Shown here piece by piece: positions 1-39,131 of a stretch of DNA of 64,000 nt. The stretch is from contig JAECYW010000003.1 of the NCBI GenBank assembly GCA_023014335.1, positions 2,852,001 to 2,916,000 on the forward strand, given 5' to 3'. The position numbers and the translations under genes were made by a program. The notes beneath the pieces were generated by a model, which worked only from the letters and a program-made list of their open reading frames with translations, was not told the DNA's origin and did not search any database. Within the stretch, counting starts at the first letter, position 1; each line of letters begins with the position of its first letter. Origin of the DNA: Galerina marginata. Lineage: Eukaryota; Basidiomycota; Agaricomycetes; Agaricales; Galerinaceae.

Positions 1-93
1 CTGCCACAATCCAAGGCTTTTTGCACCGTCTCCTGCCTCTTTCTTTTTACTGTCTTCCCCTCTACGTGGGACTACTTGTCTTCTCTGCTCATT

Positions 94-3000: not shown

Positions 3001-3142
3001 GGCAGCGGCTGGCATGTAAGCCCTTCGCCATTGCTCTCGCTTGCTTTTGATGAGTTTTGACCAATGTTTATTCTCAAATAGGGTTGTCCAAAACCCGGAT
3101 TTGACAGCCACTCGGAGAAACCTTGCTGTTTACTTGGACTAA
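94..3142 (+). CDS. DUF6532-domain protein, copy 1
   Basis: This multi-exon gene starts at an ATG at 94. Early exons 94-211, 269-322, 377-615 and 673-772 join in frame. They encode a low-complexity N-terminus with a basic nuclear-localisation-like patch (KKAKRRK near 600). An acidic D/E-rich region follows (1110-1260). The C-terminal part (about 2050-3142) matches the basidiomycete DUF6532 family as I know it: a helical region with an FxxxxY pattern and a terminal SDW. Two short introns in the domain (about 2585-2632 and 2781-2837) are multiples of three with no stop, so an unspliced read also stays open. The last splice (3015-3081) replaces a stop and gives a C-terminus ending VYLD. The function of DUF6532 is unknown to me. 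The donor after 918 is weak. The family call is fairly sure. Confidence 0.75.
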
Positions 3143-3239
3143 ACATGTTTATTCAGCAGTTTATGCAGGTAATCGGTAAGTGGTTTTCTGATCCTAACAA
3201 CATGTCAATGACGACAGTTAATAGACACCAATAGTGACA

Positions 3240-3566
3240 AGAACAACAAGCGATGTACGATAACCATGAGCGATGAGCGACAAGTGACAAGCAACGAGCG
3301 ATGAGGACAGGTGACAAGGACAAGTGACAAGGATGAGGTCAAGCAACGAGGACGAGGACGAGCAACAAGAACAAGGATGAGCGACAAGGACCAGGACGAG
3401 CATTGAGGACAAGGACAAGGACGAGTGATGAGGATGAGGACGAGGACGAGCATTGAGGACAAGGATGAGTGATGAGGACGAGCAATGAGTGATGAGGACG
3501 AGCGATGAGTGATGAGGACGAGCGATGAGCGATGAGGACGAGCGATGAGCGATGAGCACAAGGGAT
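3240..3566 (+). repeat. GA-rich minisatellite, copy 1
   Basis: This purine-rich tract sits just downstream of the DUF6532 gene. Degenerate short units (GACAAGGACAAG, GATGAGCGAT) resolve toward the right into about four copies of a 20-bp unit, GAGTGATGAGGACGAGCGAT, between about 3467 and 3550. Long Ser/Val/Leu-rich frames on the minus strand are artefacts of this repeat. Confidence 0.9.
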
Positions 3567-3689
3567 GCTGCAACATCTGCACTGTATTTTGTATTGACTA
3601 GCTACTGGCTAAATAAACCCGTCTTTTGCCCTGGAAATACCCCAAATATATCTAGAAAAATACCCTATATTTAGAAATAGGTCAAATGC

Positions 3690-4011
3690 CTGGCGCCTTG
3701 GCCCACTGTCAGTAGCGCTACAGAGAGTCACACATTGATTATACAGACCACAGTGTGCGCTGCATGCACACCACACCAACCTGCAAGTAGATACCAAGGT
3801 CTCAGACGAAGGTGCAAAGAAGTGGTGGGTGTCTGGACAGCACTACCAAGCACTCTGGGGCCTCTACATGACGCTACAGACCTGGCTGCAGGCGCTGCAA
3901 GGCGCTGCATAGGATGTGCAGGGTGCCGCAGATCTAAGGACGTATTCTATGTTGCTATGGCACTATGCAGCACTACGTATTGATCAGCAGCCTACCCAGG
4001 GGTTACTGATG
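3690..4011 (+). repeat. Subterminal region and right terminus of mobile element, copy 1
   Basis: GC-rich non-coding end of the duplicated segment with repeated CGCTRCAG/GCGCTGCA-like words and one TGCTATG motif, ending in GGGGTTACTGATG at 4011. It is identical to 23153-23474. The final bases are the inverted counterpart of CATCAGTAAACCC at 4694, as expected for a terminal inverted repeat. Confidence 0.6.
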
Positions 4012-4693
4012 GCCCACCTATTTTTGTCCCCAAAGATTATTTGTGTGGATTGTATGAAAAGCGGGGGAAAAATGTGTTATGCTTCTTCGGTTATTACCCT
4101 CCTTGATCCATATTTCCACTCCAATAGTGGCTTATCTTCCGAAGACAGATTGCACATTTGAGTTTATCTTTCTTGAGTCTTCACAAAATACTTTACCCGT
4201 GACTAAAATCTAGCAATCTGGGGTGTAGACCAATCCACTGGTAGTTCCACAGTGTGGCATGAAACGTAGATGTGTAATCCCAAAGCACACCACTGGCAGT
4301 AGAGCTTATTCATCTCCGTAAACAGGTACGAATACCTACTTGGTTGATTTATCGGTTTACTAAAGCATCGGTATTGTTTGCAATGCGTCCTTCTTTCTTG
4401 GCCTATGCTGGCGCAACGGTTAGTGCATCTATTCTACGAATAAGTACACCCTTACTTTCACCCGAGAATAACATCAATTTTAGTTCAACTAAATTGACAC
4501 GCATTGGTTCCAGACGGAGCCAGTCGGTCTTAATCTAGGCCATACAGTATAAGCGCCGAGAATCTAATTCATAGAGGAACAGGAAACCATCCTTCAAGCA
4601 CTTTCTACCCGGATATACACTCCTGTGACTCTGATGTAAGTCGAACGCTCACTGGCTGATGAATCTACGCAGGGTTTGGGATTAAAACGACTA
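4012..4693. other. Spacer between the two element copies, no gene seen
   Basis: About 680 bp separates the right end of copy 1 from the proposed left terminus at 4694. No convincing reading frame was found; the 64-codon frame at 4344-4538 has no recognisable features. It may be host DNA or a remnant of another insertion. Confidence 0.5.
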
Positions 4694-4890
4694 CATCAGT
4701 AAACCCAGATTTTGGCTCATAGCATGCCATAGACTAACCGCACAATGCCATAGCAGACCACCTTCTCGGCTAGCAACCCATAGCAAGCATAGCAATCTGT
4801 AGTATGTCACATAAATTACCTAGTTAGGCATAGGCACGTGTGCATGCTACAGAGCTCTGCGCATCGTTCTCAAGTTGCTATGGAGTGCTG
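4694..4890. repeat. Left terminal inverted repeat and subterminal CATAGCA motifs
   Basis: The terminus CATCAGTAAACCC is followed by four CATAGCA words at 4718, 4749, 4779 and 4788 and a TGCTATG at 4876. This arrangement is typical of transposase-binding subterminal repeats in CACTA-like elements. The terminal 13 bases match the inverse of 23462-23474 at 12 of 13 positions. Confidence 0.55.
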
Positions 4891-5100
4891 CACAGTGTTT
4901 CCAAGTGACTACACATTATACAAAGACTGGGATGCGACAACACAGCTAGTTATGTACTCTATATAGCCATCACAATGTACTGCGGAATTCTAGATTCATG
5001 CCTGTAGACTGCTTCTTATTTTAGTACTGTTTTGAATGCTATCCGACCGCTATGAATATTCATTAATAGAGTTGTATGTTGGCTTTATCTTTGAGCCCTA

Positions 5101-8100
5101 CTAAGTGAGAGCCCAGAACAACTCTTTATCAAAGTACTTGTTAAGTGTATACTCAGAGCTATATGTCGTACTATTTTGGGCTGTCAAACCCCTATTTGCC
5201 TCATTTCCAAATCGTGGAGCAACGTCAACCAAGGCACGTATCTGACGGAGGGGGAGTATATCACCAACCAGTGTTCCATTTGAGCGCTTCTTTCTGGTCA
5301 AAATATAGAGAGAAGATGAAGCTTCTGGATATGAACCTCTTGCTGTTCTGGAACCGGATATTGATTGGTTGGTTTGGGGTACAATGTCGAAGCGTTGAAC
5401 ATATGACAAAAATTCATTAGGAATCCCTGATAAGGAAGAAGTAGAGTTGCAAGGGATGCGAAATATCAGTCGAAGATCAACAACCAAATGGCCTGAAAAA
5501 TTGTCTCTTTGAGAAGAAGTTCGTTATTTAATATAGAGGGCTGAACACACCTTTCAAACCGCTCTTAGGCCATTCCTGAGCAGGATCAATATTTGCAATG
5601 ACACTATCATAACGACCAAGTGGCCATTCTGCAGATGGAGGGTATGCATTGACAGTATGTGCGGGCAAAGCATCATGGGGAGGATGATAAGTCCTAGTTT
5701 GTATACGGACGCGATTCCAAACTTCAAGCTGGGAAAATGGAAGGGTGCACAAGGCGGTAGATATTCGTCGGCCACCAACAACAAGCGCAACAGATTCCTG
5801 CTGATCTGCAGTGCGTCGTAGATAGTCGCCCAGGGAAGCACGTAGATCATGGAGATTGAACAAAGCTGCAACATCATCCACAAGCTGGCGTTTATAGCTA
5901 GGATCTCGGGTTAAATGGAAGGTTGAATGGGGCGAACATTCTTGTGTACGATGTGGACGAGGTGCATTTGGCATGTGACCACACTTGAGATCGTTGGCTA
6001 TTTTAAAGTAGTCAACTGTTTTGTTGTGAGTAGAACCAATGAATGACAATACTGAGTTGACGTTGGTTGGAAGTTCAGATGGGGTGTCAATGCTGTAGTG
6101 ATCCACAAAGGTATCTGGGTCTAGTGCAGCATTTGTGGTTTCTTCTCGAATAGCTGTTGCAAGGCCAAATTGACGAAGTTTGTCAGAACGGTCAAGGTAG
6201 CGGCAGATTTGCGGTTCATAGTTGCGATTATTTCCGCAATCTGCTGGATCCTTGACTACCTCAATGTGGGCATGCTCTGTCGTATCTGCAGACCATTGTA
6301 TAGCCACGCCATTCAGGAGGATGTTGGTGACGACACTTTGAAGAAATTCAAGTTTGGGAATGCCATACCAATGTTGAATGGGTGACTTCTTTCCACGACG
6401 AGCATTGGCATCTAAAATCGCTTGCTTGTTGTCATGGAATTCTTGAAGAGCCTTCTGGATTTTATTACAGGTATCACTGTCAACGGCCGTTGCTTGAGCT
6501 AAATATCGAAAGTCAATCAAAGCCCTGATAGCAATGAGAAATTTTGTAGAAACAGCTTGAAAGATGACAGAGACAATGTATCTTTGGACATCGCGATGCT
6601 CTCGCCCTGTAACCTGCTTTAATTTGGATATACCTTCATTGAAGTGGCGAAATGCTGTATGCGGATGTAGAACAGCAAACCGAAAGTCAATTTCTGGCCC
6701 TCCTAATGCGTTTATGCACCATTTTGCATCATGGTCCCAAAACATCTTGTGCCAATGGTGAAGGGGCTCAGAGGTCAGAAATGTGGGAGGTTCTGCAAGA
6801 GGGTAATCCCTCCAAAACGGCCGATGAACTCCATTAAGATGAAGTATGTTACATTGATCGATGTAGTCTTCTAAGCTCCATGGATTCGTATTTGCTTCTG
6901 CTGCCGCAAGCTGGGCAAGGATTGTTGATGCCGTCCTTGGTTCATGGCGAAAATCATCACCAAACTGCTTGTGGTGGGCCATCGTAACAGATGAGGCATT
7001 TTTAGCCGCGCAGGATATCATTGCAGATTCTGGAGTGTCGACGATGTAGGCCGCCAGAGGAGTGAAACAAAAGCGCTGACAGCCAAGTGGGTCAATCATC
7101 ATAACTCCTATCCGAGCAGCCGTCTTGAGGGGGGCAAGGATAATATCCAGACAATGATGAAAGAGGCGTGCATCTAATACACCCCGTGGTTTTGACTTGC
7201 TGTGCGTAAACTGAGCGATGGGCAATAGTGCCAGCAGAAGAAACAGATGACTGGACGATTTGTTACGGGGAGCCATGTCGATATTGGCCAGGCTAATAAG
7301 AAGAGGGTGGGCCTTGCGATTTCCAGTCATCGCTGATATAGTTGTTCTGTCTGAGGATAGCACTGTTCCGAGAACCGTTGCACCTGTTGGTATCTTCTCC
7401 TAGAGGAGCCCGACAGGAAGTTGGAATGTGATTTAGTGGGTGTGTGAATACATAAACGTACCTGTATTGACCAAGCCGCATCGCCAGAGAGCCACTCTGT
7501 ATAAACTCTCATAGTTTTTGCTGCTGATTCAAAAAGCCGAAAGGGAGTGAACTTGATGGAACTTTTTAGAAGCGGGTTGTGCATGAGTGACTGCAGACAT
7601 TCAAGTGGATCCCGGTAATACAAAGTGAGTTTGTTTTTGGTAGGATAAACAGTTGTAACAGGAACAGATTTCCATGCTGGGCCAGCAGGAAGTATTTCTG
7701 CGCGATTTCGCAGGTCTTTTGCTGAACGAAAAGAAAGACCAATTCTTTGAATCTAAATATATATTAGCCAATGCAGAAGGCTAGAAAGGAAGGCTTACCA
7801 GTTTGGATTGAAAGAATTTATTCAATGACCGCATGCTCAGATCAGAATTAAGGAGGAAAGAAGCGAGTTCCCATTCATCTTTTGAGGCAAAGGGATAGTA
7901 TGGATGTGATTCCCGTTCATAAGCAAATCTGTCTGCATCAAAAAGATCCATAAAGGTAGGACCTGAGCCAAAAATTTGGGAGGATGTAGGGTAGTCTTCT
8001 TTGTAGTATGGGCTGCACGGAGCGATTGATTCTCCACCGGGCTCAGAATGAGAATCTATTTCCATTTCGACACTTTCCGCACCCAGTTCAACATTGTCAG

Positions 8101-8344
8101 GCTGGGTATGCATCCGGTCTTCATTAATATAGGCTCCTTCAATCGGTAGTTCGGAATACAGTTGTTCAAACAATGGTGTCAGAGAATTCTGTTGCGGTTG
8201 ACACTTGACAGTGGTTGGTGGCTTGTGGTTCTTCATGAGTTCCTTGAATGCGTGAAGACAAGATGATGCCTGATTCATGTGTTTCAAAACACTGGCTTCA
8301 TCAACAAATCGTTTTGCACATCTTGGGCAAAAGAGCTTTGACAT
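5101..8344 (-). CDS. Plavaka-family (CACTA-like) transposase, apparently intact
   Basis: Four exons on the minus strand (8344-7799, 7752-7462, 7399-5551, 5492-5101) join through GT-AG introns of 46-62 bp. They sum to 3078 nt, giving 1025 residues without a stop. The N-terminus has a C2H2-type zinc finger (CPRC...H, residues 6-26), then an acidic linker. The catalytic part begins near residue 295 with SSDRTTISAMTGN, the family's first-aspartate block. LAAYIVDTPE and a KHW/WGHD-like helical region follow. The C-terminus LNKYFDKELFWAL is the characteristic Plavaka ending. The expected role is cut-and-paste transposition in the nucleus. It lies about 400 bp inside the proposed left terminus. The clean frame suggests recent activity. 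Assignment to Plavaka is confident; activity is inferred. Confidence 0.9.
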
Positions 8345-8400
8345 TTAGGTTGGAGACGAAAGCAACATTTGCGTTCTACTTCCCAGTTCGAGTGCTCATC

Positions 8401-8419
8401 CACGTGACTTCCGCGTTGA
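8401..8419 (-). promoter_or_regulatory. TCCGCGTTGA plus GTCACGTG promoter motif upstream of transposase
   Basis: Read on the minus strand this is TCAACGCGGAAGTCACGTG, ending about 57 bp before the transposase ATG. The same two blocks, TCAACGCGGA and GTCACGTG, occur upstream of the TET-like gene at 14459-14497. The core is an E-box-like CACGTG palindrome. Confidence 0.4.
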
Positions 8420-8649
8420 TAGATTATACAGACCTCTCTGTTGCCTCAAATTTGTGATATAATAGGTTCAAGCAATGTAGGATTGGAAATCAAAATATAT
8501 TACATCAACAAGAAGAATTTCAAGAACCAAGAAATCATATATACAATGCCGTGAGCGTATAGTTGAGTTTTGAATAAGAAGCTGACAAACTCTTCCTCGA
8601 GACCATCAACGTGTAGAACAGCTGCAAGGGACGTGTGCTGGCAGGCAAT

Positions 8650-10960
8650 GGCAAGCTGGACGTTCAGCATTTGAGCCCCAACATCGGGTTGCAGGCTGCA
8701 GTGCGAGGGTCATAGAATGAAGGTAAGAATAATATTTGATGATATGAATTGATACTTACCTCGTTATTTTGGCAGGTTCCTGGAAATCCGACATAATGGC
8801 GGCGCTCGTGGAGGTCCTGAGGGTGCTGGGAAGGAGGTATCACGCCGTCGAACAAATGCTAAAAGCCAAAGAAAAGGTCAAGGTAAACACACATTCTAAT
8901 GATCGAAATACGTCCTCCTCACATTCTTCCGACCCAGTCTGTGCCAGTACCAGTGACGCCCGCCTCACAGCCCTCCTCTTCGAGCCTCAGTCACATCCTG
9001 TACTCCAAACCCGGTCCTCCTTGCATCCAGCTCCGTGATCGACGTGGAACGACAGGCGACAGAAACGACTACCAGAAATAGTCGAGACCGCCGTCTGTGC
9101 ATCGCTTGAATGCGGATGCTCTCGACAACCTGCAGAGGCAGAGGGCGACAAGCGAGCGGGAATGGGTAGCGTTGACGCAGGCGGCGGAGAGGATGAGAGG
9201 GGGCTGGTGTTATTTGATGACCCCGGCTGGGTGACTGCGAGCTTTCAGGAGTTGCTTCCTTTAATTTGGTTCTTCCGGTGTTTGACTCGTTTCATGCGGC
9301 AGGGAAGTGCGCCGCGGCTTGAGATGTGGGCGTGGGCGCTCGGCACTCAGGGAGGTGGATGAGCTCGCGGGTGCTGGTGCTGACGGACGATGGCGGGGAT
9401 GTTTGACGTTGATGTTGAAGTCCCGCGGTTGAGGGGTGGTTCTGAGGGTGGCTGCAAAAGAGGTGAGTAAGCATTTGATGATAGTATGAACTCGTACTCA
9501 CCTTGATATTGTGAAGATTCCCCGATGTTAATTCTACTTGACATCGCGCTCGTGGGACGTTGAGTGTCGACGATTCGAAGCCCTAGAGTCGATGGGAGGA
9601 ATGTGAGGGAGCTGGATACGAGGTAAGCAAGTTTTCGAACAATAAAATAAAATAATACTAACCTTTTGATAACAACAGCTCCTCCTTCTCTTCAGCCACC
9701 CCGGAGTCGTTGACGAGCATCTACCATGCTTCACGGCGGTATCCCGGCGACGAACAAGAAACGCCCGTTTGTGTCACAATGTTGTGTACGACTCGTACCG
9801 CCGCGGGAAGGGGTGCACGGCGACCTGAGCATGCCCTGCCGAGTTGGGTGGAGGCACATAAGACGGAAGTGGAGAGAACGGGATCAACGAAGGCGCCGCG
9901 GGAGATGTTGGGAGGTGGATGGGCCACGGCGAAACCTTTGGATTCGACGTTGAAGTCCCGGGTTCAGACGAGATTCTGAGAATGACTAGAAACAAGGTAA
10001 ACAGGTATTCAATGACAATCAAAGTCGGTGCTTACGCTATTTTGACAGATCAGTCGAAATTTGATTGGGCGACTACGCTCGCCGAACGTCGCACGTCGAG
10101 CTCTTGAAGGCCAAACGCTGAGGTGGAAGTTGTGAGGGTGCTAGATACCCCTACTGAGCATGACATGTCGGGTTGGGTGTGGGCACGGAAGAACGGGGTC
10201 AACGAGGGCGCCGCGGGAGATGTTGGCACACTCGGAGAGGTTGACGTGGCATGTCGGGTGTGTGGGAGGGTGGATGATGGACCTCTGAAGTTGATGTTGA
10301 GGTCGTCGATGGCGAGGTGCAGGCTGTGAATGAGGTAAGCAAGTAACCAATGACAATATGAAATGTTACTTACTTTGTTATTTCAACAGGTTCCTCAATA
10401 TTCAAGCTGGCGCCTGCGTTTGCGGAACGTCGCACGTCGAGCCCTGAAGCCCCATTGAAGGTCCAACACTGGTGTGGAGGTTGTTAGAGTGCTAAGAAGG
10501 GGTAGGTAAGTTCTCGAACACATATACCAACTAATACTTACTTATTTTTAGCAGCTCATACAATTTCCAGCTCCTTTGACGATGTCCTTCCACCCTCCAG
10601 CTCGGTAATCCGCTAACAAACGCAAAACGGGTGCTGCTGCTGCACTCGTTCGTGTCCTTGATGGTGTGTGCGACTCGTACCGCCGCGGGAAGGTGCGACC
10701 TGGGCATGACCTGTTTGGTTGGGTGTGGGCGTAGACGAGGGAAGGGGAGCAAACGGGGTCAGTGATGACACCACGGGAGACATCAGCACTCAGGGAGGCG
10801 GATAGCGGGTACGGGAGGTGAGACCATTGGGGTTGCTTTTGAGGTTCCCATAGTGGGATGCAGGCTGCCAGCGTGCTAGAACGAAGTAAGCAGGTATTGA
10901 AAGGCACTTTAAATTGTTACTTACCTTCTTATCTTGATAGATTCTTCAAAATTCGACCAG
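8650..10960 (-). repeat. Array of seven intron-like units with Pro-rich exon-like spacers
   Basis: Seven units of 49-56 bp (8723-8775, 9463-9516, 9623-9678, 9997-10048, 10335-10389, 10506-10554, 10886-10940) share GTRAG at one end, an internal ACTTAC or ACTAAC, and an AG end. An eighth lies at 13755-13804. Read on the minus strand each has a GTRAGTA donor, a CTTAC-type branch site and usually a nearby CAG or TAG acceptor, so both strands look spliceable. Between them are 60-330-bp segments that resemble each other. The longer spacer at 9679-9996 recurs at 10555-10885 and 13805-14060, sharing CGTACCGCCGCGGGA-like and GACGAACACAAACG-like blocks. No continuous protein can be read. It probably derives from tandem amplification of exon-intron sequence next to the SSN6 remnant. 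Confidence 0.65.
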
Positions 10961-10984
10961 GATTGGAAAATGTCCTGATCAAAG

Positions 10985-12345
10985 GTAAGCTTTCGAAATC
11001 GTATATGAAGAGGAATAGATAAACTTACCAAACATCGAAATCTTCACTGGCAACCTTATTATGCAAACTCATCAACTAACCACCTTCAAATTCCCTCTGG
11101 AATTACCCGCGGCATCGACGAAGATAACGGCAACGAAGCGAAACGACCCAGGGTGAGTCGTACGAATGACAGGTCCACGATCTTGAGGAATTGACGAGGG
11201 CTCGTTTGCAGCATTATTATGCAAACCAATCACGCGATGTTGAACGGTGGGTGGGTACTCGAAGAAGTCGCGGCATGCTAGGATTGACAGTAAGATCTCG
11301 AATTTTATTAGAAGAACTAAAAAACTTACCAGCTTGTCTGAAGCTCGGTGGCAACCTTATCATTCAAACCCACGACCTTTGGCGATTCGTGCAGCAGTCG
11401 AGCTTGAACAGAAGGCGGGTACTCGAAGACGAATATGAATAAGAAGGCGGGATGACCGCCATCCCCGCCTCCTCAACCTCGCCATTTCACTCGCCAAAAC
11501 CCCGCAGCACGCTAGCTAAACGACGGTAAGATCCTCATTCATGTAAGAAGGACTGAGAAACTTACCAACTTGTTTGAAGCTCGGTGGCAACCTTATTATG
11601 CAAACTCATCAAGAACACCTCCAACCCTTCCTCTCGATCTTGAATTTCCGGTGGCGTCGACGATGGACGCGGCGAATAGGAGAGATGACATAGGTGAGTC
11701 ATGCGAACGGCGGTGTTTCGGCATTCTTGAAGGACTGACAGAGGCTCTTTGCAGCCTTATTATGCAAACTCATCACTGAACGCTATTCGCGTGGCAGTCG
11801 AGGGTGCATGGAGAACGCGGGTGCTCGATGACAAAGACGGGACGAAGGAGAGGTTGACGACAGCCTAGAGGCTCGGTCAGTCAAGGTCATAGTCCATTAC
11901 GTTAAGAAAACTCACAAGGCCCGTTCGCAGCCTTACTATGCCACCCCTCGTCATGATCCAGCTCCAAATCCATCCCACGAAGCCCTTGCTCTCGTCGTAT
12001 GCAGCGTGTAGGCGGGTGCCCTTCAAAGTTCAGCAAGAAGTCCTATTTTACAGCCCCGGTAAGTCGTACAAATCACGATAGATGTATAAATCGACTTACC
12101 AAACTCATTCGCAGCCTTATTATGCAAACTCGCCGTCGCTATCGAGCACGCGGCCACACAAGACCAGAAAGAGACGATGTGCACTGCGACCGCCGACGTG
12201 TAGACGTTTTGAGCCGTGAGCAGCGGCATGGAAGCTGCGAAGACGATGGATTGGGACATCCTGGGTTCGGTAAGTCGTGGTTATTGTGACAGAGGTATAG
12301 AAAACTTACTAAGCCTCGTTAGCAGCCTTGCTTTGCAACCCCATC
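10985..12345. repeat. Array of eight units carrying the GCAGCCTTATTATGCAAAC motif
   Basis: A conserved block close to GCAGCCTTATTATGCAAACT recurs near 11048, 11208, 11350, 11585, 11751, 11927, 12111 and 12322, at steps of about 140-235 bp. Most copies are preceded by an intron-like stretch beginning GTRAG and containing CTTAC (clear at 11153-11211, 11693-11754, 12059-12114 and 12270-12325). The unit at 12059 has perfect GGTAAGTCG / CGACTTACC ends, so splice signals exist on both strands. The last copy overlaps the end of the SSN6 remnant, suggesting the array arose by repeated copying of an SSN6 exon boundary. No coherent protein is encoded. Confidence 0.6.
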
Positions 12346-13690
12346 ATCCACCCACTTGTGCATCGACGACTTGATTCGTATAGCTCGAGAATAAGCATCG
12401 AGGGTCTCACGGAACTGATTGGTCTGGAAATAGAGTGCACCAATGGAGCACCAGAAAGTTGGGTTGCGTCTTGGTAGACTGCTTGTTGATATGCTTCGTA
12501 GGCTTTGTTGTATTTTGGCCAGCCATGTATGCTCGGCCAAGGAGATACCAACTTTGGGCATCGGACGGATCTGAGTGGTAGGTCCGTTAACTCGTACACA
12601 ACCTGACGTATGATACAAAAACGTACCGGCTTTGAGGCTCTTGGTAAGATATTGGATGGCTAGCTCCTGGTTCTGGAAGGAGGAGCCGTCTTGATGATAG
12701 AGCCAGCCAAGTTGTTGGAGGACTTTGGCATGTCCCGGGTTCGCGTCGACGACGCACTCGTATGCATCCTTCGCTTGGAGATGCTAATGGGCTGATAAGC
12801 TATGGCGCGGGATGGGTAAAGCGATGGACTTACATTTTTTTGCTGCTCAAAAACGTGACCGATTTGGAACCAGATATCGGCGTGGGCAAGGCCTGGGTGG
12901 ATTGCGCAGGATGTCATCGAAGCATTCCAACGACGACCTGGTGAACTTGCCCTGTTGCTTGTAGATTATCCCTAGACGAAAGAGAATCTCGTTCTCTTTG
13001 TTAAAGTCTAAATCTTAAATAATTAATCAAGACTGCTGTTCAAAGGTTTAGAGTCAACAGATAAACCGACCTTTACACATGCGCAGCACTGACGCAAAGG
13101 CTTCCTCCGCGTGATCGAGGGATCCATATCGGTCGTAGAGAATACCAATACCGTACCACAGCTTGGGGTCCTTCTGACACGTCAAATATGAACAAAAGGC
13201 AATGAACAGAAAGGCGAATCTACCTTTGGATTCGGCAGGAGCTAAAGCGCTGGCTAATAGGCTGAATAAGCCTTTTGAAGGTCATCCTGCATGAGATAGC
13301 AACGCCCTGGATGACAGCCGTCAGCTGTGAAGAGAAGAGTGTAATGAAAACATACCGAGGGCACTCCATATTTCGCCGTTATCCTCCTCAATCTGGAGTA
13401 CACGCTGGAAGGAATCCACTGCCTAAAAGAAAAAGAAGACGTCATCGTTTCCGCGGAAGATGAAAATACGGCTAAAGTACCTTTGGATAATTTTCTTTGA
13501 TCCGAGCGATACCCGCAACCTCAGATACGGAGGTCGGATTGTGCCGTAGCGCGTTTTCGTAGGCGGAGAGAGCATGTTCGAGATCATCCATCTGCTCGGC
13601 AACCCGCCCTAATGCCCAGTCAGCAAACATCGCAGGATTGACGGCGTTGAAGACTGGGTGCGAGATGTGGGAGACCATCGGCGGCTGTAC
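12328..13690 (-). pseudogene. SSN6: Decayed SSN6/CYC8 TPR corepressor fragment
   Basis: The minus strand shows successive tetratricopeptide segments of the Ssn6/Cyc8 corepressor in correct order: GRVAEQMDDLEHALSAYENAL (13620-13560), VLQIEEDNGEIWSALG (13410-13355), YLMQDDLQKAYSAY (13295-13255), LWYGIGILYDRYGSLDHAEE (13165-13100), ENEILFRLGIIYKQQGKF (13005-12945) and NPTFWCSIGALYF (12465-12425). Ssn6 acts with Tup1 in nuclear repression. This copy is dead. Two in-frame TAG codons lie at about 13240-13255, and frameshifts lie near 12893, 12513 (one A lost in an A-run) and 12468 (a few bases lost). Intron-like gaps are retained between the segments, so it was copied as genomic DNA, not from mRNA. 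The C-terminal half is absent or replaced by repeats. A working copy presumably exists elsewhere in the genome. Confidence 0.85.
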
Positions 13691-14060
13691 TCGCGGAACG
13701 TCGCTTGTCAAGCCTTTGAGGTTCACCGCTGACGTGGAGGGCGCCAGGATTGAGGTAAGTAAGATTTCAAACGTGAATACGAAGTGATACTTACTTACCT
13801 TTAGCCGCACTTCCCCGGGACGCCTTTAATGGGGTTCTTCCGCCCTCCTGCTCGAATCCCGGTGACGAACACAAACGGATGTTGCTGCAGTCGTCCGTCT
13901 CCTCGACGGTGTGTACGATTCCTGCCGCCGCGGGAGGGACCCACCAGCAGCCTGAGCCCGTCTGATTGGAGGTTGGCACGGAAGACGGAAAGGGAGGGAA
14001 CAGTCAACGACGGCATCGCGGGAGTGGGATAGCGGGGTACTTGGTATGTCGGGCAGTCGT
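13691..14060. repeat. Outlying copy of the exon-intron repeat, left of SSN6 start
   Basis: It contains an intron-like unit at 13755-13804 and a spacer that matches those at 9679-9996 and 10555-10885, sharing the CGCCGCGGGA and CGGTGACGAACAC blocks. Together with the main array it brackets the SSN6 remnant on both sides. The stretch from 14061 to 14458 shows no recognisable gene. Confidence 0.55.
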
Positions 14061-14458
14061 TATCGCTGCGGGTGGCCGTCTGAGTGTACTCGCAGGTTGT
14101 AGGGAGGGAGATGAATGACACCTCCGTAAGTCTCCTCCGTCCGTTGCTGCCTCCGATTACGCGGCTGATGTCGATTTCCACTGCGTTCTCCCTAAGCTCA
14201 ATCCAAATCGTGGATTCGCGGGCTATCGGTATGGGTGTCATCACGCCGCGTTCGAGGAGGGAGGTGCGGAAGGCAAGGGTGAGTTGTCTGATACAACTGT
14301 TGTGGGATCAATACACCTGGAGAGAATATAGATATGCAATGACTTACATTGTATCTGCATTGCATAGGGGGATGCAGGGTTGAATGTTTAAGGGATTTCC
14401 CAAAAGCCGGATTTTTGGGAAAGGATTCGCACAGAGAGAAGGAAACACAATCAACGAT

Positions 14459-14497
14459 TCAACGCGGATGCGCGACACGACTGATACGGTCACGTGA
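14459..14497 (+). promoter_or_regulatory. Shared promoter motif upstream of TET-like gene
   Basis: TCAACGCGGA (14459-14468) is followed by CGACACGACTGATACGG and TCACGTGA, ending 68 bp before the ATG at 14566. The first and last blocks recur before the transposase (8401-8419). The CGACACG...GTCACRTGA part recurs before the coiled-coil gene (18473-18499). Confidence 0.45.
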
Positions 14498-14565
14498 CTT
14501 CACGTTGACGCGAAATCTCAAAGTCCGTATTCACACTCTACAACTCCAATTGACACCGCGCTGAC

Positions 14566-17500
14566 ATGGATCAGGCATCTCTTGTGCTCTCTCTGTCCGA
14601 GCTCTCCACGGCTATCGGGGCCTTGCAAGAACCTCACACTGACCCCGAGGTTACTCACGCTCGTCTCATCCTGGCTTTGAAGCTTCACCTGTCTACCTCT
14701 GCCAACTTGACATCTTCAGAACCCCACTGCAATGTTTCGATTGGTGGTGATTTCGTTCCTCAAACTTCTCAGGTACAACATAGCTGTCTTATTTTACTTG
14801 ATTTCACTCAATTATGATTACAACCCTGTAGAATATCCTTTCTGCCCTCCTCCCAACAGCCTGGACCACTTCAGCTACTTCGGGGTTTGATTCCCCAGCC
14901 CCGGCGATCAACCCTGCCTGGACAGTCCGCGAGGCGAACTTTGGTTTGCCATCACCATCCCCTACGCCTTCACCCTCAAGACCATGGCCTTTAGCGCAAT
15001 GGCCTTCGACACCCCTGGCTGCAGTGACATGGCCATCAGCATCGTTGCAGGAGCCGATGCCCATAGCTGGGTTCAGGAGCTCATCACCTTTATCTTCCTC
15101 ACCACAGATGCCTTTGCCTCCTTCAGCGTTACCACCCCTACTGGTACCTCCTTGGCCACTTGAATCAGAACAATTGCTACCATTGCGTTTACCGTGTGGG
15201 CTCCAGACTGAACACATGCCCTTTGTTGGCAATTCCATGGGTGATCCTCTGAATGATCAAGGCTCAGAGGGGTCTGCGCCGCGGCGACGTGGAAGCACTG
15301 AGGAGTTAGAGCGCTGGCTGAGAGGCGACCTCCCTCCAGATGGCGCTCATGGAAATGGACAAGGGCCTGGGTATGCTGGTGGTCACCCTGGAGGAGGAGG
15401 AGGAGGAGGAGGAGATGATGACGATGACGAGGATGACGAGGATGACGATCATGATGGTCCTGGAGGTGGTCCGCCGCCACCGCCGCCACCGCCGCCGCCT
15501 CCTCTGCCACCCTTTCTTCCTGTCGTGGACCCATGGTGCCCTCGAGGAGGTCTGCGGGCTCGCCTTCTTCGAGATGCAGCGGGTCGTACTCGGGCGGAAG
15601 CCCAGCAACATCGCCAATGGAACTTGGAAGAGAGATACCTCCAGCAGCCAAATCCAGAGCAAGATGAAGATGCACAAGCTCAGGAACAATCGGAACAACC
15701 GCCTGACACCACCATAGAAGAAGTTGATGGGAGTGTGGCTGGTAGTGCTCCTTCGGCTGTTTCGCTTTACCCACATGCCAGTCATGTTCCGGTCGCTGAG
15801 GAACCAGCTTGGGGCGATGATATGCGGCAGTTGATCCTTGCGGTCTTATCTATGGCCAAGACATGTCTTCCTTGTATACACCCAGTAACCCACAAAAAGG
15901 GAGTAACAAATCCTGACGAAGTTTTGAAATTCATCGTCGGGGGCAGCTTTACTGGCCCAGTTACCCAAGGAGCTCAAAGTCAACTGTCAACACCTCAGCC
16001 AAGTTTCCCCAACACCTCCGAACCTCTTATGGATAGCACTCTTCAGAACATTGTGCTAACTGTCAAGCGTTGTGCAGCATCAGAGATCAAGGACGCTATT
16101 GTTCAACTTAGTTATTGGCTAAATTCAATCAAGCTTGCGTGTCTTCTGAACAAGTAGGTTTCTTTTTTCATCTTCAGAGTCGCTGAGTATATTAATATGT
16201 TATATCTCAGGTACCTTAAAGAGAACCAAGTCTCTTCCATTACAAGTGTTTGGGCCAGCATTGAGACCTATGTCCGGCCTGCACGTTCAACCTTTGATCG
16301 GTATGTAACAGACGGTGTATATGCATGCAGACTAGCCGGTGCTGGTGAGTCTTTGTATATGTTGTACCTCCTCATTCCTTGCTCAAAGGTTCGAGTTTAG
16401 GCTCGATGTATTTTTTGGTGCTTATGGCCTGTGCCCGCGTCCGCCCACAACTTCGAAAATTGCGAGGCAATGCTTGCGGAAGTCTTGCTAAATTTATCCG
16501 GTGCCCAACAGGTATATACTGTTTTTTTCTAGTAATTAAATGCATATTCTTATTGTCATGATATCTTAGATTCTGCATTCGGTATTCTAGTTAAAAAAGA
16601 ATTGATTCCTGCCATTGCTTATCTTCGGGTGACATATCCTCTCCGGGTTAGCCTCTTTTTTCCGACGGCTTTTCTTCAAAGTTTTGCGGTTGATCCAGAG
16701 CTTGATTGCACCGACTTAATGAGAACCGACATGTTTTTTGACTCAATCTATCTGTATAAGTAAGTGTCTGTTTATCTACACTCTTTCCTGATCTTCTAAG
16801 CAAGATACTACAGTGATTTCACCAAAGGACGAGATTGGGACAGTTGGATCGAATGCGCTGGCTTTGTCACCGGTTCATCTTATTCCCTGAACACTGTTGA
16901 AGAATTACCCATGAACCAAGAGCCGCTTGTTGGCTCGTTACCGGAAAAAGTCACTGAAGTACCAATATCAGAGCCAGCAGAACCACTGGAATTTATGCAC
17001 ACTGATTCTTTCCAGCCCTACCCAAACACAGAGCCACCTATCGACTTCGGTGACATTACTTTACTGGATACAAACTATAACCCCGCCTTACAGTTCAACA
17101 AGAAGCTCATCTTCAAGCGAACAGACAAGCTGGACCGCTGGCAGGTCACAGAACAAGAGCGAGCTTATGCGCGACAACCCTCACATCCGAAAGACTTGGA
17201 ACAATTTAAGAAAATGGTAAATATTGGTACTTTGCCACTGTCAATTTGAATGCTTATCTTGACGTAGCTCCAAAAACAACTACAGAATGGATACAAGAAA
17301 GGTAGAAAAAAATATCTATATTTCGACAGCCGAAGACTTGATGCGTATGTTATTTCTATGTCATATTTTCATTTTATCTGATGTAAACTCCTTATTTAGT
17401 GGGATATTCTGCATGAGAGATATCAATCAAAAGTTATCTTGGGCGGTGTGCACCAACATGCCTGACGATTTAAAGTCAACCTTATTTCCTAAGCTGGAGA

Positions 17501-18305
17501 CGATCTACCCCAAGGCTCTTAAGATCACTAATACTGCGGATGAGGGTTTGGATAACGCTTTTCCTTCCTGTCATTTTACATATTGGTTTCGATATGGTAA
17601 AAAAGTCGGTCGTTTCAAGCAACTGTCAGTTTATCGTCACTTATTTGATGTTTTCAGGGTCACAATACGCCTTCTGGTGCCGATGTTTCTACCTTGCAAA
17701 AGGAAGGCAAGCAACCAGTCAATACCTCTCAGAATATCCCCAGAGAAAGCCGCGAGCTTAAGGAAAATTCAGCTGAGTATCAGATGTTTATTGACGCTTT
17801 GGGGCCTGTCTTCCAATGGATTAAACAGCTTGTAAGAAACCTCTTTGGTAATACAGCATGTGTGGCTGAGATTTACTTCTAGGTGAAACAGCTGCTTCCA
17901 GATACCTTTGAATCTCTTTCGTACCTGGTTAGTTTGTTGCCAAACGGTGATACCTCGCCCGTCGACCCCTTTGCTGGCTTTGTTGTCAACATCAATGTTT
18001 CAACACGTATTCACCGTGATTGGGGTGATGAAGATATTTGTCTTGTATTGGTGCTCTCAGATTGCATTGGAGGAGAACTTTGCCTTGTGGAACCTGGTGT
18101 TGTGTTGGCTATGCAAACAGGGGACGTTGTTATATTCAAATCTGCTGAAATATCGCATTTCAATCTGCATTACTCTGGGAAAAGAGCATCGCTTGTATTC
18201 CACACTGACAGAGCTGCTCGATCGTGGGCTAAGGATAGAGATGGTTGGGATCGCAATGTTTTCATGCGCACAATGAAGAGCCGTATACCAGACTTTGAAT
18301 TGTAG
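14566..18305 (+). CDS. TET/JBP-like 2-oxoglutarate/Fe(II) dioxygenase
   Basis: Ten exons (14566-14772, 14832-16153, 16211-16344, 16389-16511, 16570-16759, 16814-17216, 17268-17344, 17400-17604, 17658-17831, 17883-18305) sum to 3258 nt, giving 1085 residues. The first 400 residues are low complexity, with a Gly run, an Asp/Glu run and a Pro run (15394-15510). The C-terminal domain has the double-stranded beta-helix signature: THRDW-type HxD at H989/D991, a second His in ISHFNLHY (H1037), and a 2OG-binding Arg in GKRASLVFH (R1046). NTSQNIPRE and the HTDR...W tail match the fungal TET/JBP-like enzymes as I know them; those oxidise 5-methylcytosine and in fungi often sit beside KDZ transposons. 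The substrate here is inferred. The donor at 17605 (GTCGGT) is unusual but needed for frame. Confidence 0.7.
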
Positions 18306-18447
18306 TCTCATTATAAATAGTCTTACTTGCACAGTTGCACTCAGACTTCTTTTAAGGAGAAAATAGCATTCTTCAAAGCCAATCTAAAGTCCTCATATCA
18401 CTGTTAATAGTAGCTATTAATTACTGCTCTTGTTTTTCTTTTCTTTT

Positions 18448-18500
18448 GACGACACGCGATTGACGCGATTGACGACACGCGATTGACACAGTCACATGAT
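18448..18500 (+). promoter_or_regulatory. GACGACACGCGATT repeat and GTCACATGA motif before coiled-coil gene
   Basis: A short tandem repeat of GACGACACGCGATTGACGCGATT type ends in GTCACATGA at 18499, about 190 bp before the ATG at 18686. CGACACGCGATTGACACAGT resembles the block upstream of the TET-like gene at 14473-14497. Confidence 0.4.
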
Positions 18501-18685
18501 ATGAGATTGTTGAGAGCATTGGATTCTTTGATCGTCTTCACACCCTGACCTACCTCATCCACTGCTGTTCCTTTCATTTCCTCTGTTTCCTCTGTATATA
18601 TTCACTTTCTTGGTAGGTTCAATCCTGGGCTACTCTCCAGCTATATCTCTGCTAATGATCTAAAATCAGTATATCAGCCGTTCCC

Positions 18686-19182
18686 ATGAATATTTCATCA
18701 GAGCGGCTTATGAAGTTGGTCAAAACCAATGTTGAGACGCTTGTATGTATATCTATCTCCCAGGACATGCTAATTATGCTCATAAATCTGATATTAGAAT
18801 TGGCCCAGGCATGTATCATCTGCTGAAGAAGCTTACGAGCTCTTGAAAGACGCTTCAAATGAACGCTCAAAGTTTCTTGTTCTTCAACGCCAACTTGTTA
18901 TTCAGCTCCAAGAGGCGCAGAAGCTTGTTAACATTGTGCAGAAGCATCTGGAGAATTCGGAACTTCATACTGGCCACATCCGTTACATTATCGGCAAGAG
19001 TGGATTCCAGCTACCCTCTCAGGATAGATCGATCAATGATGATGATGACCCAATTATCCAGATACTAGGAAGTACGCAGGTCAATTTATGGTTTACCTGC
19101 AACTGCTAACCAATGTACTGTACCAGATAAACGTTTAATCGCTATTCCAGACCATGAAAACTTGATGATTACTTTGGATTAG
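18686..19182 (+). CDS. Small coiled-coil protein of the element cassette
   Basis: Three exons (18686-18742, 18798-19071, 19127-19182) join through GT-AG introns of about 55 bp. They sum to 387 nt and encode 128 residues. The middle is a charged helical stretch rich in Leu, Gln and Glu (RSKFLVLQRQLVIQLQEAQK, residues about 40-60), likely a coiled coil, followed by an acidic DDDD patch. No family is recognised. It lies 380 bp after the TET-like gene and 375 bp before the DUF6532 gene, all on the plus strand, so it is probably a working member of the cassette. The exact frame closure over three exons supports a real gene. A partner role for the dioxygenase or for DNA binding would be speculation. 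Confidence 0.65.
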
Positions 19183-19556
19183 CCACTCCAATTATTATGC
19201 CAGTTACGCCAAATGCCTTCTTGGATTTTTCCACTATTATTTACTTCTCAGTTGTTGTTTGCAGCTCCCAGTCCATATGATCAGGGTTTCTTCTTCAAGT
19301 ATATCAGTGGTTTGTATCTTGAATATGACTATGGTCCGTGCCTCATGTTTGGTCTGGCTGACACTGCAATATTTGGCCCAAAATGGACTTGTGTGGGAGT
19401 GTATTTCAGAGCGCGCTATATATTCAAAAGCGTGAAAAACGGTTGGAACTTGGTTGACTTTCACTGCCACAATCCAAGGCTTTTTGCACCGTCTCCTGCC
19501 TCTTTCTTTTTACTGTCTTCCCCTCTACGTGGGACTACTTGTCTTCTCTGCTCATT

Positions 19557-22500
19557 ATGCCTCCCGTTAATCAAAACGAAAACCCTACCAGAGGCAGCAC
19601 TGCCAGCGTAGCTCCCAAGCGGAACCCTCCAGGAGGAAAAAAAGGATCTCAGACCTTAACTCAGTCCACAGCGGGTACGCCTTCCTTTGATTGATACACT
19701 CATACTAGGAGAACTAAATTTCCTTATACAGTGAACGCACTTGTACCAGTTATCATGACGCAAGTCAACCATGCACCAGAACCAGGTATGATTTCTGCAT
19801 TTTTCGAATGATTTATATTAATACTGTTTTGTTTTGTAGGTCGAACTCGACCTGTTCGTACTAATGCTGGGCAAGGTGGTGTCGTTTCTCAGTTGACGCG
19901 TGTGTCAAATACAGTCGGAGCAGCTTTACTCCAAAAGGTTCAAGGCAAATCTGCTCTTGCTGGCAAGCCAGGCGTTTTAGGAAACAAAAAGAGGATCTAC
20001 GATGAGCTTGATGCAGCACCCGAGGACATTCCAGACAACAAGCTTGCACCTCAGAAGAAAGCAAAGCGCCGTAAAGCTGTAAGCCAACTCCTTTGGGACC
20101 TGTTCATCTATGGCTTCTAATCGTTTAACACGTAGGGACTGGCCACTCCTCCAACGTTTCTTCCAGAAATACCTGACCCCCCGTTAACTATTGCTCCTAT
20201 GCCAAGTCGGCAACTTCCTGCCCACCTACCACATGGTTAGCTTTACATCTTTAAACATTCACAATAGGCTTCTAACATGTAAACTGTATGATAAGGGCGC
20301 CATTCACCTCCTGGTGTGGAGTTTTATAATCCCAAGCAATTAACTCTAAATTCGGTGGCTAAATCTCCTATTCAGTTGTGTGTTGCCTTGATAACTCAAC
20401 CTCCCTAGCATCAGCTGCCTCCTGGGCCTGTAATTAACACCCGTCAGCTGGCACCACCTCAACCTTCTCAACCTTCTTTGCGTGCTCATCAACAGGTAGT
20501 TGGTCCTGAGCTAGTTCGTGGTACAGCAACAATAACATATGGGTCTCGCAAGCAATTGCTTGACATTGAAGCTAGCGACTCTGAAGATCCCCAAGAGATG
20601 GATGAAGACGAGGACGAGAGGGATGAGGATGAGCAGCAGGACTACCAATACGATCAAGATCACGAGGATGATGGCCACAATAATAGCGTTGATGGAGAGT
20701 ACGATGAGGATGAAAATATGGATGCTAACCTTGACGAACCCCAAGCAGCCTATGAGATGGATAACCAACTTGATATGGACGTGGAACCCTTTGGTGACAT
20801 GAACTATTATCCAGGTGGAAAGTATGACGTAGAAGCTGATCACAATGATGAACGGCAACCCCTATTCCTTCCAAATGGTCAATATTGATTTCTCTTCTAT
20901 TTCTCGCTCTGACCACATCTTTTAGGTGATATCCTCGATGAACAATCGCCATCCGAAGATGAGCAACTTGCGCTTTCTCACCTTCATGCTCATGAACCTG
21001 GCCTTGAGAACAATAACCGGTATGACAACAATGAGGAAGGCATGCCTGGCGCTGAAACAGTCACAAACAGGTGGCCCAATGCAGACGAAGATGGACGATC
21101 TAGCTGGGATCAAGAGGAACAACACCTAGATTACGAAGTGACATTCATCTTATTTTTTTTTGGGACTTTGCTAATTGCTATCACGCTTCTTGTAGATTGG
21201 ATTTATACCTGATCCCCAGCATGAGGAAGAATCTGCTCAAGAAGCAGTCAATGGTAGTGAGGCTGAACAGGAAGAAGTACGCCTTAATTTTATTTCATCA
21301 CCTGATATATTTAATCAAACTTGATAATTTAGGCTGACCAGACTGAGGATGTCCTTCAAGCGCACCACAAGCGTAACCGACCCAACCGGCCACCAAGTCT
21401 CCCAAAACTTACTGCCGCAGCGGTTAACCAGCTGAACGAACAGCCTGAGCCTGGAGATGACAATTCCGAAACTTCCTCCAGCACAGATGCGCCCTCCAAC
21501 AGTGGTCGAGCAGTGAGAAACTCAAGAAAGACGTCGCTGAAACCTACAAACCTTGGCTACTATCCAGCCATGTGGCAAGTTGTTCTGATTCGGTCAAAAA
21601 TCAGGTTCAGGAGATATGTTGCGTTGACTCGATTATTCCCAGTCAAAGCTCAACATTTGCCGATTGCGATGTCTATTCTTACAGAGGAGATTGCCCGAGC
21701 TCAAGAGGAAGAGATGATCCTTGAAAAAGGCAAGTATTCTTTGTATGTTTCTATGTTTTCTCTGACCTCATCTCAGGTTATGCTCTTTCTCGGGATATGG
21801 CCACAGTAGTGCGTATTCTCTAGATCCTAAAAGAAACTTACTTATACAAGTCTAGGTCTTTGACGAGGGCTCGACATTCCGCGGTAAATTCAAAACATTG
21901 GCCAGGACAATTGTGAAACGCTGCTATGACAAAGAACTGGACCCTGTAACTGAAGGAAATCAACTTGGGCAGCAGCTGCAGGTCATCGACAACGTCAAAG
22001 AGATTCTTGAGAATAGTACCTATCTAACTGATGGGAAGGATGAAATGGTAAGGAATTGCGGTCTCTTTTCTATTTTTACTGACTTGCTTTGCAAGGGACG
22101 AACCAACAATTTCGCTCATGTGGCAATTCGTCAACTTTGCATTGAACAGTTCTACCAAGGAGAAGACTGTTTAGCGCACCACTTCCCAGAGGATTTCAAA
22201 GACGCTGTTCCCGAGAAATGCATCACCATGGTCATGACTGGTGTACGCTTTGTCCTGCTATACATTCTACCCCCTGATTCAGTGACTATTTTCATTCAGC
22301 TCACCAATTGCTTGGAGGAGTACAAAGAATTTGGTGTACTGAGCAAGATCGAGTTTTCAAAAGATGGATATCAGAGCACATTCAAGGCGCTGACCAGCTT
22401 GATGGAACAGATCAAGGAAAACCCATATCATAGCAGTAAATTGGCAGACTACCGAAGTGATTGGGCAGCGGCTGGCATGTAAGCCCTTCGCCATTGCTCT

Positions 22501-22605
22501 CGCTTGCTTTTGATGAGTTTTGACCAATGTTTATTCTCAAATAGGGTTGTCCAAAACCCGGATTTGACAGCCACTCGGAGAAACCTTGCTGTTTACTTGG
22601 ACTAA
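19557..22605 (+). CDS. DUF6532-domain protein, copy 2 (third cassette gene)
   Basis: This is an exact duplicate of the gene at 94-3142, with the same exon layout shifted by 19,463 bp. Here its upstream context is visible: the coiled-coil gene ends 374 bp before the ATG, and the TET-like gene lies before that, all co-oriented. The protein has a disordered N-terminus with a KKAKRRK nuclear-localisation-like patch, a long acidic region, and a C-terminal helical DUF6532 domain. It is followed by the minisatellite and the element's right end. Because the two copies match, the duplication is recent or under strong conversion. Function is unknown; nuclear location is inferred from the basic patch only. 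Confidence 0.75.
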
Positions 22606-22702
22606 ACATGTTTATTCAGCAGTTTATGCAGGTAATCGGTAAGTGGTTTTCTGATCCTAACAACATGTCAATGACGACAGTTAATAGACACCAATAGTGA
22701 CA

Positions 22703-23029
22703 AGAACAACAAGCGATGTACGATAACCATGAGCGATGAGCGACAAGTGACAAGCAACGAGCGATGAGGACAGGTGACAAGGACAAGTGACAAGGATGAG
22801 GTCAAGCAACGAGGACGAGGACGAGCAACAAGAACAAGGATGAGCGACAAGGACCAGGACGAGCATTGAGGACAAGGACAAGGACGAGTGATGAGGATGA
22901 GGACGAGGACGAGCATTGAGGACAAGGATGAGTGATGAGGACGAGCAATGAGTGATGAGGACGAGCGATGAGTGATGAGGACGAGCGATGAGCGATGAGG
23001 ACGAGCGATGAGCGATGAGCACAAGGGAT
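22703..23029 (+). repeat. GA-rich minisatellite, copy 2
   Basis: Identical to 3240-3566, including unit number and order. Minisatellites change copy number quickly, so an unchanged array argues for very recent duplication, gene conversion or an assembly artefact. Confidence 0.9.
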
Positions 23030-23152
23030 GCTGCAACATCTGCACTGTATTTTGTATTGACTAGCTACTGGCTAAATAAACCCGTCTTTTGCCCTGGAAA
23101 TACCCCAAATATATCTAGAAAAATACCCTATATTTAGAAATAGGTCAAATGC

Positions 23153-23474
23153 CTGGCGCCTTGGCCCACTGTCAGTAGCGCTACAGAGAGTCACACATTG
23201 ATTATACAGACCACAGTGTGCGCTGCATGCACACCACACCAACCTGCAAGTAGATACCAAGGTCTCAGACGAAGGTGCAAAGAAGTGGTGGGTGTCTGGA
23301 CAGCACTACCAAGCACTCTGGGGCCTCTACATGACGCTACAGACCTGGCTGCAGGCGCTGCAAGGCGCTGCATAGGATGTGCAGGGTGCCGCAGATCTAA
23401 GGACGTATTCTATGTTGCTATGGCACTATGCAGCACTACGTATTGATCAGCAGCCTACCCAGGGGTTACTGATG
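23153..23474 (-). repeat. Right terminus and subterminal region of the composite element
   Basis: GC-rich end with GCGCTGCA words and one TGCTATG at 23416, finishing in GGGGTTACTGATG. It is the inverted partner of 4694. The next bases are TAG, compatible with a TA target duplication. Confidence 0.55.
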
Positions 23475-23893
23475 TAGATTCCTGCTCCACATTCGGGAAT
23501 GGAGTTACAAATCAGCTTGTTACGACCAAGAGCACGACCTTCATATACCATTTTCAGTTCAATCTTGCAGATTTAGGGCAGAATTGCTCGCTTAAACTAG
23601 TTTCTCATGTGTTTGGAGAAGACCCTGTGGACCTTGAGCGCTTGAGGGGAGTTGAGGGGAAACATTCTTTGTAGATAATAAAAGTAATGCAGTGGAGATC
23701 ATGTGCAAATATTCCTCTATGTAAACGTTTGTGATCAAATACATGCTGGAATCCTCAGAATACAATTGATTTATGAGAATTAAGCATATTTGACGTCGCG
23801 AGGTTCGCGAATAAGCGCCCGTAATATGCAAATAGATTAAGGAACTCTTCAAGACTCGGACTTATATACATAACGACTGCGTACTAAAAAAGG

Positions 23894-38562: not shown

Positions 38563-39131
38563 CGGTCCAATCCTACGGTGGGAAACAAGACTTTGCAAAA
38601 TCCAAACAACTTGCCGTGGATTTGCACCCCCAGCAAAATAGTCCGGGCGCGGTAGTGCGGTCGGGTTTGCTTCACGTATGTAAGTGTGTATTTAAGTTTG
38701 TAGATGGTGTGATTATTGATATGTTGCTCGTTGATTTACCTCTTGTTTGGGCGTTGGTTTTTGTGTGACTGTGCTTGGCAAAATAGGTACGCCACCCTGA
38801 CACCCCTGTGAAATGGATATAAATAGCTTGTGGCTCGCACTGTGTCGTATAAAAGAGGTCCAGAACGAAACATTGCGCAGTTTCCTCCCCTCACAGTGAA
38901 CCGTGGTATGCCCCTCGCTCAAAGGTTAACAGGTAGACTGACCGTTCCATTTATAGACATTGAATTTGTGGAATAATGTCGAATCAAGTTGCTAATCCGC
39001 ACTTGTTAAATGCTTGTGAGTAAATTATCCCCTCTTTCTGAAACCTATTTATTGACGACTGAATTTTCCCTCGCCCTGTAATAAAATCAACGAATATTAA
39101 CACCATTCGTATCCCAATTCCCTGACTGGAT

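Follow-up and report, generated by a model that had tools for sequence, protein, structure and literature searches.

The window analysed in this work, a stretch of 64,000 nucleotides from Galerina marginata (assembly GCA_023014335.1, 69.3 Mb in 43 contigs; contig JAECYW010000003.1, hereafter C23, positions 2852001-2916000), carries between positions 4694 and 23474 one complete DNA transposon of the Plavaka class, 18,781 bp long, with CATCAGTAA inverted ends and 2-bp target duplications. Four genes reside in the element, and encode a Plavaka transposase, a TET/JBP-like dioxygenase, a small coiled-coil protein and a DUF6532 protein. The features of the locus, and related elements found elsewhere in the genome, are listed in Table 1.

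Table 1. Features of the window element, of the array to which it belongs, and of elements compared with it (window positions, unless a contig is given)
Feature	Position	Strand	Remarks
Right part of preceding (fourth) tandem copy	1..4011		same right terminus
Host spacer between array copies	4012..4693		682 bp; 681-682 bp, four times in array
Target duplication TA	4692..4693 (left copy); 23475-23476 (right copy)		2 bp
Left terminus CATCAGTAAACCCAGATTTT	4694..4713	+	left flank of first array copy diverges exactly there
Plavaka transposase gene	5100..8344 (exons 8344-7799, 7752-7462, 7399-5551, 5492-about 5100)	-	4 exons, 1025 aa
Middle region	8345..14565	no strand	mostly captured DNA resembling that of the host; no recognisable intact gene
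TET/JBP-like dioxygenase gene	14566..18306	+	10 exons, 1081 aa; catalytic HRD...H...R near C-terminus
Coiled-coil gene	18686..19182	+	3 exons, 128 aa
DUF6532 gene	19557..22482	+	~717 aa, exon details provisional
G/A-rich repeat tract near right end	22735..23035	no strand	
Right terminus CATCAGTAACCCCTGGGTA (minus-strand reading)	23456..23474	-	long-repeat divergence and array borders
Array copies	starts C23: 2778843, 2798297, 2817759, 2837230, 2856694		18,773-18,789 bp; joined stretches
Second-family copies	C8:1167728-1191075; C14:951290-974583; C31:176265-199575; C31:129174-160578		23.3-31.4 kb
Short non-autonomous elements	C10, C29, C41, C43, C1, C23:411k		same kind of ends; duplications TG, TA, TG, AG, CG, TT
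Elements with CATGGGTAACCCTTGGGTA inverted ends	C4:749092-767440, 890051-908399, 1014126-1032472		18.3 kb, each with KDZ transposase match

The 13-mer CATCAGTAAACCC at 4694 and its inverted partner at 23462-23474 agree at 12 of 13 positions, as an earlier note on this DNA had read them. Allowing up to two mismatches, the 13-mer is matched six times in the window against 2.5 expected, three times exactly; the additional exact match, at 3999-4011, terminates the tandem copy that precedes the window element. Two long repeats, 1-4011 and 19464-23474, are identical base for base and diverge from the next base on, which places their divergence exactly at the right end of the element. The left end lies about 400 bp outside the stop of the transposase gene. 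Exact matches to CATCAGYAAACCCAGATTTT number 12 in the genome, and three open frames cross a junction when the empty site is reconstructed by joining the flanks. The termini conform to the CATCA..TGATG type of Plavaka both in the window element and in the second family described below. The class, labelled CACTA-like in the earlier note, is better defined as Plavaka, because the ends are CATCAG and the duplications measure 2 bp, in place of the CAC..GTG ends and 3-bp duplications of CACTA/EnSpm. Plavaka has been assigned, in the text of Kojima 2025 (PMC12730594), to the wider CACTA/EnSpm-Mirage-Chapaev-Transib group.

The window element is the last of five head-to-tail copies, repeated on C23 with a 19.46-kb unit, a setting which the earlier note, limited to the window, could not reveal. 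The outermost borders of the array coincide exactly with the CATCAGTAA termini, and confirm the ends proposed there. Relative to copy 4, copies 1 and 5 exhibit nine and one indels, respectively, all in or near homopolymers, and no substitution; in copies 2 and 3, indel columns number 63 and 99, and substitutions 10 and 13. In copies 1, 4 and 5 the four exons checked are open over their whole length; some of them are disrupted in copies 2 and 3. Indels in copies 2 and 3 are probably assembly noise in the middle of a long repeat; real decay is the lower-ranked alternative. The number of copies depends on the assembly. The first copy is flanked by GC on both sides, the last by TA. Because these duplications are different and each is perfect, and the spacers are nearly identical, the array would have originated from two independent insertions, which shared one orientation and were separated by ~680 bp, and two copies would have become five by unequal recombination between copies. 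An excised circle that was replicated, or an error of assembly, is an unlikely source of the array: near-identical copies, two of which feature scattered indels, would be accommodated by either, but one host sequence of 681-682 bp recurs, within about one base, in all four spacers, and the duplications of the two outer copies are those expected from two insertions. A tandem series of whole, near-identical elements suggests recent activity.

Other loci bounded by such ends in the same genome comprise a second family of four long copies, plus six short elements. The second-family transposase, found on C31 (two loci), C14 and C8, shares 71% DNA identity over 1.6 kb with that of the window element. 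The four loci diverge from one another exactly at CATCAGCAAACCCAGATTTT, and the C14 and C8 copies diverge at the opposite end exactly at ...GGTTTGCTGATG; four perfect right ends, retrieved by a pattern search, pair with the four left ends. Duplications flanking these copies are TT, AA, TA and GA. Altogether, matching 2-bp duplications were found in 12 of 12 testable insertions; partnerless ends (C1:1795k, C9:175k, C11, C40, C25, C42, C19) and array copies 2-4, in which the spacer is common to both sides, were left out of the count. Since independent copies, four of the second family and six short, share the end motif along with 2-bp duplications, a chance origin of the ends is excluded. Gene order is the same in the second family as in the window element (for the C8 and C14 copies from a reading of the coiled-coil and DUF6532 genes, and for DUF6532 in all four copies from a search). 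No terminus falls between transposase and dioxygenase in any of the nine long copies, of which five belong to the array and four to the second family, and the TET-like gene is again co-bounded with the transposase in the second family; either observation could have turned out against the earlier note. Its description of the element as a self-mobile package of transposase plus probable DNA-modifying enzyme is thus supported, the ends being right, both genes lying within them, and the second family being built alike. One of the C31 copies (129174-160578) is about 8.1 kb longer than the other, the extra DNA presumably being a nested insertion between transposase and dioxygenase. A third family was noticed at C8:380k, C23:1106k, C35 and probably C29:447k. 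On C4, three pairs of CATGGGTAACCC ends, spanning 18.3 kb each, were considered as further copies, and rejected because KDZ transposases inside mark them as a different family.

The four-exon frame of the transposase closes as previously proposed. The protein matches the Pfam family Plavaka (PF18759) at E 2.7e-91 and 306.6 bits, the cut-off being 26.3, as well as DUF6830 (E 3.3e-58), and is 44-71% identical to 12 aligned relatives. A CxxC motif between residues 383 and 549 is absent in all 13 aligned transposases, and an H(3-4)H motif occurs in seven of them. None of the 135 KDZ matches of the genome falls within the array (C23:2778843-2875474), which rules out a KDZ transposase inside the element and agrees with the failure of the earlier note to recognise one. 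Among the best 120 of 826 transposase matches, Gymnopilus and Pholiota relatives sit on contigs that differ in length from those of the listed dioxygenase relatives.

The dioxygenase frame closes over ten exons, one of which has a weak donor (GTCGGT). Residues 907-1048 match the Tet_JBP profile with 42.8 bits, above the cut-off of 34.9. The iron ligands HxD...H and the downstream R are invariant in 11 of 11 aligned rows, and HRD is present at all 15 dioxygenase places read, out of 18 in the genome. These 18 places, the array being counted once, account for 46 genome matches. By sequence search, 193 aa of the window enzyme found no match to CcTET at E values up to 1; the single match among solved structures (E 0.17) was an unrelated protein. 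The position of CcTET Asp337 is occupied by V in nine of nine Plavaka-type rows and by D in two of two KDZ-linked rows, in an ungapped stretch where a gapped alignment could place a nearby D. The predicted fold of a Coprinellus relative matches CcTET, NgTET and TET2, and CMD1 is also among the matches. The set of relatives was extended by a profile search to three more proteins, two of them ending before the catalytic domain. A Plavaka match above 200 bits lies within 30 kb at 13 of the 18 places. At 12 of these 13 the nearest one is divergent; at C8:867752 a convergent match is the nearest, with a divergent one at a distance of 20.8 kb. Element ends were tested, among Plavaka-linked places, for the array and the second family. 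On C3, C10 and C39, three strong Tet_JBP matches each have a KDZ match no more than 5 kb away; the one that was tested resembles CcTET (7vpn). The three KDZ-linked TET genes form a lineage separate from the Plavaka-linked dioxygenase; this genome hosts two TET lineages beside two transposon classes.

Ratios of nonsynonymous to synonymous substitution rates (dN/dS) were calculated for the catalytic exon in 45 pairs, 36 of which, including all those with the gene of the window, are saturated. The nine below the saturation filter gave 0.05-0.06 (three pairs), 0.23-0.31 (five pairs, near-saturated dS) and 0.42 (one near-identical pair, few changes). As judged from these ratios, purifying selection on the catalytic exon of the lineage is supported in the measurable pairs.

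The coiled-coil frame closes, as does that of DUF6532, in which the small exons between 20241 and 20498 are provisional and an alternative 736-aa chain scored higher than the 717-aa one; the earlier note had described both frames as clean. A related coiled-coil protein is encoded at the corresponding position of the second family; the pair shares 28% identity over 90 aa (E 6e-10). The DUF6532 domain match has an E value of 7.4e-32, and all 32 genome matches to this subfamily lie inside the nine long copies. In gene models of Gymnopilus dilepis and G. junonius (P0001, P0004) a dioxygenase of the same lineage is fused to a DUF6532 domain, which suggests that the pair is old. The middle region includes a tetratricopeptide repeat (TPR) gene fragment with retained introns (12371-13639), 90% identical at the DNA level to C12:3262686-3264012; we take the gene to be Cyc8/Ssn6-like. 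Shorter pieces of the same TPR gene are found also on C12, C14 and C40. This captured host DNA shows that the element family does take up passengers, and dioxygenase and DUF6532 could likewise have been captured once by a Plavaka element, with no benefit to it. This is improbable: a search of the second family gave no sign of the Cyc8-like fragment, gene order is kept across two families diverged to ~71% transposase DNA identity, the Plavaka link is repeated at 13 of 18 dioxygenase places, and the catalytic exon appears to be under purifying selection in the pairs that can be measured. Pieces of the middle region recur at ~10.96-kb steps at C17:685947-709197 and C27:5588-17870, a spacing that suggests another tandem array. 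Intron-like stretches of ~46-56 bp, alike in sequence and with inverted GTAAG...CTTAC ends, were noticed at 8723, 10335, 10506, 10886, 13755 and other positions, and resemble introner-like elements. Outside the transposon, a 1919-aa open frame (39126-44885; Helitron_like_N, DUF6570, PIF1) corresponds to a Helitron helicase.

Four cytosine-methylase (PF00145) matches exceed the cut-off in the genome. The median observed/expected CpG ratio in 1-kb windows is 0.66 (n=19) in the mobile genes of the window element and second family versus 0.94 (n=64) in flanks, and TpG+CpA is raised in the mobile genes. The middle region (1.03, n=6 windows) is no different from flanks (P 0.10). Depletion confined to the mobile genes fits their repeated methylation, and a younger, host-derived middle. 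The element is best regarded, with good though incomplete confidence, as a complete Plavaka transposon which carries, along with its own transposase, a TET/JBP dioxygenase predicted to oxidise 5-methylcytosine (5mC), and so likely averts silencing of the element. Ends, duplications, co-bounding of four genes in two diverged families and recurrent dioxygenase-Plavaka linkage are observations; the anti-silencing role is suggested by the cytosine methylases of the host, the CpG depletion of the element genes and purifying selection within the dioxygenase lineage. According to this view, the transposase would bind the CATCA ends and mobilise the entire unit through a cut-and-paste mechanism, the dioxygenase would oxidise methylated CpG in or near the element and lift repression of the transposase gene, and the coiled-coil and DUF6532 proteins may be accessories for targeting or complex assembly. 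An effect in the opposite direction is conceivable: oxidised 5mC is reported from transposons of Laccaria and Coprinopsis in PMC8889193, where it is suggested that it may suppress them. Rather than relieving silencing through 5mC, the dioxygenase might serve transposition itself, for instance by marking ends, or act on another base (N6-methyladenine or thymine oxidation). The distance of the window enzyme from CcTET, the presence among fold matches of CMD1, described by Kojima as adding a glyceryl group to 5mC, and the other activities left open in the text of Kojima 2025 (PMC12730594) speak for such a role; a 5mC substrate agrees with the CpG depletion of the element genes and with the cytosine methylases of the host, which make such a role rather doubtful.

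Several points weigh against an intact element with an anti-silencing enzyme. An empty-site allele was not encountered. Frame-breaking indels are scattered over copies 2 and 3, with only 33 of 63 and 37 of 99 in or near homopolymers. The fold was predicted for the Coprinellus relative (mean pLDDT 70), not for the window protein. Under uniform placement the linkage has P about 1e-20, an overstated figure which treats related copies as independent; seven of ten groups are linked once near-identical copies are grouped. Five of the 18 places (C1:1936k, C8:1003k, C29:155k, C4:735k, C8:775k) have no strong Plavaka match within 30 kb, and C4:735k is 5.5 kb from a KDZ match with internal stops. The three strong dN/dS pairs amount to two comparisons, as two share near-identical sequences; one comparison involves the C4 place, unlinked to Plavaka, and the gene of the window is in none of the nine pairs. 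The CpG comparison set is mixed host DNA including a Helitron, not other coding genes. As a separate observation, DNA of the middle region recurs in pieces at C1:1942377-1943034, C8:980444-981001 and C29:160413-160957, at ~5-22 kb from three unlinked places, perhaps as decayed relatives.

TET-bearing elements called PlavakaB, with CATCA..TGATG ends, have been described in the Agaricales Agaricus bisporus and Gymnopus confluens (Kojima 2025, PMC12730594). The package of the window is thus a variant of published TET-bearing Plavaka elements, not a first. The main text of Kojima 2025 mentions neither "coiled" nor DUF6532, and "tandem" only in a reference title. Among the open-licence papers searched no report was found of an HxD enzyme in Plavaka, of a DUF6532 partner or of a whole-element array; DUF6532 is named there in one paper, within a list of Pfam domains. 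For TET-bearing Plavaka elements, exact ends, target duplications and a conserved set of four genes are now available, and in one genome two transposon classes are each associated with their own TET lineage. CpG-depleted yet intact element genes beside a predicted eraser make the question of anti-methylation by transposons themselves directly testable.

Like PlavakaB, as described in the text of Kojima 2025 (PMC12730594), the elements reported here combine a Plavaka transposase, CATCA..TGATG ends, duplications in the range of 2-3 bp (2 bp in the present elements) and an internal TET/JBP gene in Agaricales. Unlike the PlavakaB enzymes of the same text, which are of the PE type (HxE), the dioxygenase is HxD at 15 of 15 places read. 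KDZ (Kyakuja/Zisupton) elements with AG-type TET (CcTET) are likewise Agaricomycete DNA transposons bearing a TET/JBP dioxygenase; they differ in the transposase and in the enzyme, since the Plavaka-linked one has no CcTET match at E 1 and the KDZ-linked one matches at E 6e-27. The Gymnopilus models share the succession of same-lineage dioxygenase and DUF6532. It may tentatively be proposed, at slightly less than even chances, that a fourth type of transposon-borne TET is at hand, HxD and tied to Plavaka, travelling with coiled-coil and DUF6532 proteins as an anti-silencing module, beside a separate KDZ system of the CcTET type.

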